Shown piece by piece: positions 49,847-64,000 of a stretch of DNA of 64,000 bases. Location of the stretch: contig CANQNS010000001.1 in assembly GCA_947625285.1 (NCBI GenBank), positions 186,001-250,000 on the forward strand, in the 5' to 3' direction. The position numbers were made by a program, and so were the translations under genes. Under the pieces are notes generated by a model. That model saw only the letters and a program-made list of their open reading frames with translations. It was not told the DNA's origin and searched no databases. How positions within the stretch are numbered: the stretch's first letter is position 1; each line of letters opens with the position of its first letter. The DNA comes from an uncultured Oscillospiraceae bacterium (GTDB taxonomy: Bacteria; Bacillota; Clostridia; Oscillospirales; Oscillospiraceae).

Positions 49847-50083
49847 CCATTCCTAAAATGCGTGGCCTCATAGGGCTCAAACCAAAACACAGATCCGAAC
49901 CCGCGGCCTGTTCATCCAGCGCCGCTTTCATCTCGTCAAAGGTGACGGTCTTTGTCTCGTTATTATAGTTGATGTGAAGCGTCAGTTTGTATCGAATAAG
50001 TACACCGGGTTGGCGAATGTATCTATGAGCTGCTGTCGGTGTTCTTCTGCTCCTGCAGGTCCATCACCATGGAAACAATGGCC
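49847..50083 (-). pseudogene. decayed 3' fragment of a serine recombinase gene
   Basis: near-identical to 62807-63480 region (CAAAGGTGACGGTCTTTGTC, GTTGATGTG(A/G)AGCGTCAG, TCCATCACC(A/G)TGGAAAC(A/G)ATGGCC) with frameshift and internal deletion. Confidence 0.85.
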
Positions 50084-62622: not shown

Positions 62623-64000
62623 TTACGGCGTACAGCGCAAGCGCCGGCATGGATATGCCCTTTGTGCGGACTCTTCATTTGATGCGGCTTCCAGCTCTAT
62701 GATCCTTTGATGAGTGAGGAGCATAGGATCTGCATCATAGCTGGGTGTTGATTTCCGTGCTTTTTTCTTCGAGCCCCGCAGCTTCGATGTTGCCCGCTTG
62801 ACCACGCCATTCCTAAAGTGCGTGACCTCATACGGCTCAAACCAAAACACAGATCCGAACCCATCCCCTACGGGGTATGAGTTCGGATCTGTTCTACCGG
62901 GGTCTCCAAAGGGCATGCCTGCCCTTTGGGGAGAAGGAAGAATGGCCTCGACCGATGTCTGGCGCCTTGCTCGCAAGGGGCTGGAATCTTCGGGGCCATT
63001 CCGACGTGATGGTGCACCACGGCAATCCAAATCCGAACCCGCGGCCTGTTCCTCCAGGGCCGCCTTCATTTCATCAAAGGTGACGGTCTTTGTCCCGTCC
63101 TTGTAGTTGATGTGGAGCGTCAGCTTGTCATCGAATAGGTACACCGAGTTGACGAACGTATCTATAAGCTGCTGACGATGCTCCTTTTTCCGCATGTCCA
63201 ACTTGCGGAACCGCTCCAGCCACATGGTCACGAACTCCGCCGTCAGTTTCGGCTTCGCCAGTTTCTCGTTGGCGATTTTAATCTCCAGGTCCTCTTTCGT
63301 GGCCTCCAGTTCCTCCAGGCGGCTCTTGGTAGATGGCGTCAGGATGCCCTGCTGGATGGCGTTGAGCAGATTGTTGATGCCGGTCTCTGCCTCTTTCAAC
63401 TGCTGTTCATACAGCGGTAGTAGGGTGTTCTCTTGCTCCTGTAAGTCCATCACCGTGGAAACGATGGCCTGGATTACCTTGTCGTCCCGTATCTCCTTCA
63501 TCGTCTCGTGGATGACGAAATCCTCGATGAACGCTTTGTTGACCGGCTTCTTGTGACAGTCCCCACGCTTCTTTTTCACCGTGGCGCACTTGTAGTAATG
63601 GTGGACCTTTCCCGTGTGGCTGGTGCCGCTCTCGCCACACATATAGCTGCCGCAGTAGCCGCAGAACAGCTTTGTGGTCAGCAGATAATCGTCTTCAGCC
63701 TTATGCCGGGCTGGGGCCTTTTTGTTCTTTGCCAGCTTTTCCTGAACTCTCTCAAACAAATCTTTGGGCACGATGGCCGGGATGCCGTCGGGGATGACCG
63801 TATCACGATAGCGGAACTCTCCCATATACCGGCGATTGTTCAGCAGATGCTGGATGCTATTATAGGAAAACGGCTGCCCGCGGGTATTCTTCACGCCTTT
63901 CTCGTTCAGCCAACTGCAGATCTGCGTCATGGTGTACCCGGCGTCGTATTTCTTGAACGCCTCCAGCACATACGGTGCCGTCAGCGGGTCGATTTGAAAG
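62623..64000 (-). CDS. large serine recombinase, N-terminus outside the window
   Basis: recombinase domain YVLEAFKKYDAGYTMTQICSWLNEKGVKNTRGQPFSYNSIQHLLNNRRYMGEF; Zn ribbon LFCGYCGSYMCGESG...HYYKCATVKKKRGDC; coiled coil; 3' part altered by hairpin array 4. Confidence 0.93.
   Translation of the reverse strand, partial: FQIDPLTAPYVLEAFKKYDAGYTMTQICSWLNEKGVKNTRGQPFSYNSIQHLLNNRRYMGEFRYRDTVIPDGIPAIVPKDLFERVQEKLAKNKKAPARHKAEDDYLLTTKLFCGYCGSYMCGESGTSHTGKVHHYYKCATVKKKRGDCHKKPVNKAFIEDFVIHETMKEIRDDKVIQAIVSTVMDLQEQENTLLPLYEQQLKEAETGINNLLNAIQQGILTPSTKSRLEELEATKEDLEIKIANEKLAKPKLTAEFVTMWLERFRKLDMRKKEHRQQLIDTFVNSVYLFDDKLTLHINYKDGTKTVTFDEMKAALEEQAAGSDLDCRGAPSRRNGPEDSSPLRARRQTSVEAILPSPQRAGMPFGDPGRTDPNSYPVGDGFGSVFWFEPYEVTHFRNGVVKRATSKLRGSKKKARKSTPSYDADPMLLTHQRIIELEAASNEESAQRAYPCRRLRCTP
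62853..63040. repeat. hairpin array 4, ~178-bp insertion between 10-nt direct repeats ATCCGAACCC
   Basis: direct repeats 62853-62862 and 63031-63040; hairpins AGATCCGAAC..GTTCGGATCT, CCAAAGGGCA-TGCC-TGCCCTTTGG, GAATGGCC..GGCCATTC, CCTTG-CTCG-CAAGG; single continuous CAGATCCGAACCCGCGGCC in the paralogous 49.9 kb fragment. Confidence 0.9.

Follow-up and report, generated by a model that had tools for sequence, protein, structure and literature searches.

A hairpin-rich segment at the 3' end of a serine recombinase gene probably combines the native gene end, a non-autonomous mobile element and a repeat palindrome

The window, that is, the whole stretch of 64,000 nucleotides analyzed here from an uncultured Oscillospiraceae bacterium, ends within an open reading frame encoding a serine recombinase (Pfam matches PF07508, E 5e-21, and PF13408, E 3.6e-9). 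A decayed copy of this gene located at 49.9 kb lacks 178 bp that are present in the 62.8 kb copy between ATCCGAACCC repeats. Both copies have CTCAAACCAAAACACAGATCCGAACCC at one side of the difference and ATCCGAACCCGCGGCCTGTTC at the other. The direct repeats surrounding the extra sequence are CAGATCCGAACCC (position 62850) and CAAATCCGAACCC (position 63028), and their start-to-start distance of 178 agrees with the original prediction of about 178 additional bp bounded by direct repeats. Identity between the two recombinase copies amounts to 94.6% on the tail side (56 bp) and 84.7% on the recombinase side (176 bp), indicating that they do not result from a recent duplication. The segment harbors three inverted repeats (62849-62868/62873-62892, 62903-62915/62920-62932, and 62940-62951/62990-63001) and folds at -103.2 kcal/mol versus -71 +/- 4 for shuffled sequences (z -7.8), as expected from its predicted richness in hairpins. 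The following features were delineated.

62623-63999, minus strand: serine recombinase open reading frame, from the list of open reading frames, cut by the window end and open through the element
63010-63040, minus strand: native 3' end of the serine recombinase (GGGTTCGGATTTGGATTGCCGTGGTGCACCA), a motif present in 44 relatives and followed there by unrelated flanks
62900-63006, plus strand: candidate two-hairpin mobile element, defined by covariance model R1, consisting of GGG, hairpin 1, a AGAAGGAAG linker, the long stem 2, and CGACG
62904-62932, plus strand: hairpin 1 (TCTCCAAAGGGCA / TGCCCTTTGGGGA), an inverted repeat corresponding to family helices 1-2
62940-63002, plus strand: stem 2, with a conserved CC/U asymmetric bulge (GACCGATG ... 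AATCTTC) and an inner hairpin, from the fold, corresponding to helices 4-5
63002-63006, plus strand: CGACG end (CGTC on the gene strand), which abuts gene 3' termini (45 of 97 copies at tRNA or tmRNA ends)
62849-62892, no strand assigned: palindrome ACAGATCCGAACCC...GTTCGGATCTGT, an inverted repeat that opens the downstream tail repeat and also occurs at locus L004
49853-50080, minus strand: decayed recombinase copy, from alignment, its 3' end probably lost through deletion between ATCCGAACCC repeats

Searching public genomes for the recombinase yielded 74 loci, mainly from rabbit-gut Oscillospiraceae. In 44 of these relatives, the 3' end of the gene consists of GTTCGGAT...CACCA, reached via GTTCGGATTTGGATTGC, and homology stops abruptly thereafter. 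The window contains this native end at 63040-63010 (minus strand), indicating that the proximal 30 bp or so of the segment belong to the recombinase and not to an insert. The same native end is missing from the 49.9 kb copy. Alignment of the recombinase relatives, which had been proposed as a check for empty and filled sites, thus revealed the native end followed by unrelated flanks, and the 49.9 kb junction, in which the recombinase is joined to the tail at ATCCGAACCC, was present in none of the relatives compared. The 49.9 kb copy had been regarded as an empty, pre-insertion site. Since its junction occurs in no relative, it is best read as the product of a later deletion across the ATCCGAACCC repeats, the simplest account and one that the original prediction had mentioned as its alternative.

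Two other readings of the locus were considered. The direct repeats and the full/empty pair had suggested that one 178-bp element was inserted into a recombinase resembling the 49.9 kb copy. This is highly improbable because the supposed insert would include the native end found in 44 relatives and because near-identical copies of the element are bounded by GGG and CGACG instead of ATCCGAACCC. The 49.9 kb junction might also be an attachment-site product, formed by site-specific joining of the recombinase end and the tail at GGGTTCGGAT instead of by deletion. The GGGTTCGGAT sequence is indeed common to both partners, but homology in the relatives ends at CACCA, 20 bp further, and never at GGGTTCGGAT, which makes site-specific joining improbable.

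The remainder of the segment appears to be a composite of the two-hairpin element, 107 nt in length, and the palindrome of the tail repeat. At locus L046, which comes from a close relative and is 88% identical over the query, the recombinase, an element, the palindrome, and the tail are found in the same order as in the window, with a different element sequence. The palindrome unit is also present in the window's own genome after a tRNA-Leu gene without any recombinase (L004). The tail repeat, which combines a CCGAAC palindrome with an open frame (PVGDGFGFVFWFEPYEATHFRNG..), occupies positions 62741-62862 and 49847-49902 of the window. It adjoins tRNA-Leu and in many relatives occurs without the recombinase (L002, L004, L005, and L104-L119). 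Its open frame had no match in Pfam.

The middle part of the segment was found elsewhere in the same genome with a conserved fold and different stems. A covariance model, R1, was built from nine copies and matched many independent copies in relatives. The window copy, itself one of the nine model-building sequences, scored 102.9 bits over positions 1-107. In the nine-copy model, 26 of 36 pairs displayed double compensatory changes. Among 99 distinct copies, standard pairs occupied 96.6% of the paired cells (78% for shuffles; no more than 52% for slid controls), and double changes were detected at 29 of the 36 pairs (758 cells with double changes versus 215). In this set, helices 1 and 2 were paired in 99.0% and 97.6% of the cells, respectively, and helices 4-5 displayed compensatory double changes at 22 of 26 pairs. 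Even closely similar copies often showed compensation; close pairs contained 55 double, 40 one-sided, and 39 broken changes, a pattern possibly due to selection or to template switching within palindromes. The conserved unpaired features are the GGG end, an AAGGARGAA-like linker, the CC/U bulge in GRCCGAYG/CRTCTYC, and the CGACG end. Thus, the stem sequence of the element drifts with compensation and its shape, comprising two hairpins, a purine linker, a CC/U bulge, and GGG and CGACG ends, is kept. The notion of a hairpin-rich insertion held for the element, which has neither an open reading frame nor conventional terminal inverted repeats and belongs to a multicopy family; it had to be amended in that the recombinase frame remains open through the segment. 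The extent of one element had been set at 178 bp, which proved too large since part of that sequence is the native recombinase end. A GCCGCC hairpin located upstream was rejected as a part of the unit since near-identical copies begin at GGG. Rfam returned no family above the gathering score, only chance microRNA hits, for the window element or for five other copies from the same genome.

R1 matches were detected in at least 28 of 35 genomes of the same genus, with up to at least 58 per genome, and, among the matches listed, in none of 25 genomes from other genera. Loci L165 and L166, both from genome G021, match over all 106 nt and their flanks agree at chance level only, indicating that the element moves. 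Near-identical copies in unrelated flanks, such as the L228 pair, were likewise found in G026 (two copies) and in G008 (a similar pair). Such copies indicate that the unit spans GGG to CGACG. Empty orthologous sites were also identified. At one protein gene end, the element is present in G021 and G001, and the site is empty in all 21 other orthologues read. A tRNA-Ala site is filled in G000, G001, and G009 and empty in G003, G012, G015, G028, G030, and G031. The end of a gene located upstream of a lysine riboswitch is filled in G000, G009, and G011, and most orthologues read lack the element there; in the filled alleles, about 24 bp of the gene end are present as a direct repeat. With near-identical copies in unrelated flanks and empty orthologous sites, the element has the attributes of a non-autonomous mobile element. 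From these comparisons we infer that it probably forms a genus-level mobile family that has moved between species and between loci. Collections of phage, plasmid, and viral contigs contained no match to the element.

Target sites were analyzed with a model restricted to stem 2, which retrieved 97 copies in eight genomes. For 45 of these, the CGACG end was located at most 6 nt from the 3' end of a tRNA or tmRNA gene in convergent orientation. About 20 further copies abut TGG, the complement of CCA, at truncated or undetected tRNAs, the recombinase end, or the ends of other repeats. The remaining 31 copies (about one third) were at neither a tRNA or tmRNA end nor a TGG. By raw count, about 10 copies not at a tRNA were located 0-5 nt past the stop codon of a long open reading frame. 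Distal junctions were irregular, with deletions, filler, or, in a few sites, direct repeats of 12-28 bp that extend into the tRNA T-loop. Judged by analogy, this irregularity is unlike a typical IS200 insertion. In older tandem copies, parts of the CGACG end were lost on entry of a new copy. Hairpin 1 was absent from 11 of the 97 copies, all of which retained the CGACG end, although some of these may belong to another subfamily. Several copies of this type (L291, L323, L332, L329, and L327 lack hairpin 1) have an upstream TTGACAACTG.TCTCTTGGGGA-like sequence and perhaps form a different subfamily. In the window's own genome, subtype-1 elements sit in a long intergenic palindromic repeat (..CGGGCGCGAAGCGAGCCGCGAGCGGGCGGAAATGCTGTCGGGCTGG..), from which 9-12 bp are missing (L009, L020, L027, L038, L040, L041, L043, and L044).

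As the best overall explanation, to which we assign a probability of roughly 0.78, the segment would be a composite including a mobile element that lands at gene 3' ends, and the 49.9 kb copy would result from a deletion. The element would move as a discrete unit and insert in reverse orientation directly behind the 3' end of a gene, upstream of the terminator already located there. The gene end would be a stop codon, the CCA of a tRNA or tmRNA, or the CACCA in which the recombinase element ends. An enzyme acting in trans would recognize the folded strand and join the CGACG end behind gene 3' termini. The 49.9 kb copy would later have lost an equivalent segment by deletion between the repeats. 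By analogy with REP and IS200-type elements, we tentatively favor recognition of folded single-stranded DNA over an RNA-mediated copy. The candidates considered for the mobilizing enzyme did not clearly fit. An IS200 or RAYT parent was discarded since Y1_Tnp is absent from the window's own genome, is scattered in 12 of 35 genomes of the genus, and showed no association with the element: among six Y1 loci searched, a copy was found near only one, an IS200 located beside a tRNA copy. Hits to IS110 transposase were confined to element-carrying genomes, but no examined IS110 locus was flanked by the element. Reverse transcriptase, detected in 15 of 35 genomes, was rejected since its loci are not flanked by the element and its presence does not track copy number; none was found in G018 (at least 53 copies) or G033 (at least 48 copies), and G003 contains one reverse transcriptase and no copies among the matches listed.

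This last observation argues against retroposition, in which an RNA copy would be reverse transcribed from a nick located after the CCA or the stop codon, leaving a precise 3' and a sloppy 5' junction. The precise CGACG junction, the variable distal junction with its deletions, filler, and, occasionally, target duplications of 20-28 bp, the copies that lack hairpin 1 and keep the CGACG end, and the RNA-like compensatory evolution of the element are all consistent with such a process. However, there was no promoter-like site near the window copy, and some of the apparently truncated copies may represent another subfamily. Retroposition is therefore unlikely. A specific form of it is slightly more doubtful still. 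In this version, a bacterial SINE-like retroposon would consist of a structured RNA of about 107 nt, recognized by its shape and not its sequence, and a reverse transcriptase acting in trans would copy this RNA into DNA, using nicks located precisely after a tRNA CCA end or a stop codon. The location of copies directly 3' of tRNA and tmRNA genes and stop codons, together with the pairing maintained between copies at one tRNA site across species, might alternatively point to host functional elements, for example terminators or tRNA 3' trailers, whose copies would have been dispersed by recombination and not by transposition. Such an origin has a low probability given the near-identical copies in unrelated flanks, the seven genomes of the same genus without a match among the matches listed, and the ordinary terminators already present downstream in many cases. 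In addition, a simple scan revealed no terminator or promoter-like site in or near the window element, and a simple terminator or promoter role was rejected on this basis.

Mobility of the element being the preferred reading, it was compared with known systems. Most of what is known about short palindromic repeats in bacteria concerns the REPs of Proteobacteria, which are small and conserved in sequence. The present element, larger and formed of two hairpins, would represent in gut Oscillospiraceae a type whose fold is kept, whose stems change freely, and which is placed precisely after tRNA CCA ends and after stop codons, thereby offering a testable system for enzyme recognition of shape and of gene ends. 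It is also a warning that 'empty sites' and C-terminal tails located near such repeats are easily misread. CGTC-tagged REPs are small palindromes dispersed in intergenic regions. One end carries an unpaired CGTC and the far end a short unpaired tail, usually CCA; the stems measure 8-9 bp and the loops 4-5 nt. These REPs are found mostly downstream of genes in five phyla, Firmicutes not included, and have no known dedicated transposase (Di Nocera et al., 2013; PMC3733652). The CGACG end (CGTC on the gene strand) is similarly an unpaired tag, invariant or nearly so. In contrast to CGTC-REPs, the element is 107 nt long and has two hairpins, an outer stem of 11-13 bp, a CC/U bulge, an inner hairpin, and free stem sequence; its far end consists of the linker and hairpin 1, and CCA lies outside the element, before CGTC. 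GTAG REPs (RAYT) and palindromes derived from IS200-IS605 are likewise non-autonomous and hairpin-based, without terminal inverted repeats or regular target duplication. However, the window's own genome lacks RAYT and Y1, and those Y1 genes that were read in relatives are IS200-like and not repeat-flanked, unlike in RAYT-mobilized GTAG REPs. The element also differs from DNA-transposon MITEs, as its GGG and CGACG ends are not inverted repeats and direct repeats occur in a minority of sites, with variable length. Integrative elements use tRNA 3' ends as attachment sites. The precise junction, the intact tRNA, and the tRNA 3' fragment displaced to the far side at L176 and L225 resemble this situation, but the element has no integrase gene, is only 107 nt long, and is found at many tRNAs and at stop codons, most copies having no second fragment. 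By analogy, the element may thus work as a REP- or MITE-type element with a CGTC-like tag, its features placing it in none of the described families. A literature search, in which most subscription papers and preprints were outside coverage, returned the paper on CGTC and GTAG REPs and no earlier description of the element family.

Further observations concern the recombinase element. Its insertion at tRNA genes was rejected, as no tRNA was found at its left side. In 38 of the 44 relatives, the recombinase CACCA is directly followed by a hairpin that folds strongly. Most of these hairpins are intrinsic terminators, unrelated in sequence. The recombinase element gives the impression of inserting immediately 5' of terminators (window 63010-64000, minus strand; L046-L105). 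A third hairpin arrangement at the recombinase end, CGTCGGAGCAAAG..CTTTGCTCCGACG followed by AAGGAGGCGCAAGGAAGCGGGCGGATGACG and a further hairpin, was observed at L056, L062, L064, and L092; it is found partly in other genera and is possibly a distant relative of the element.
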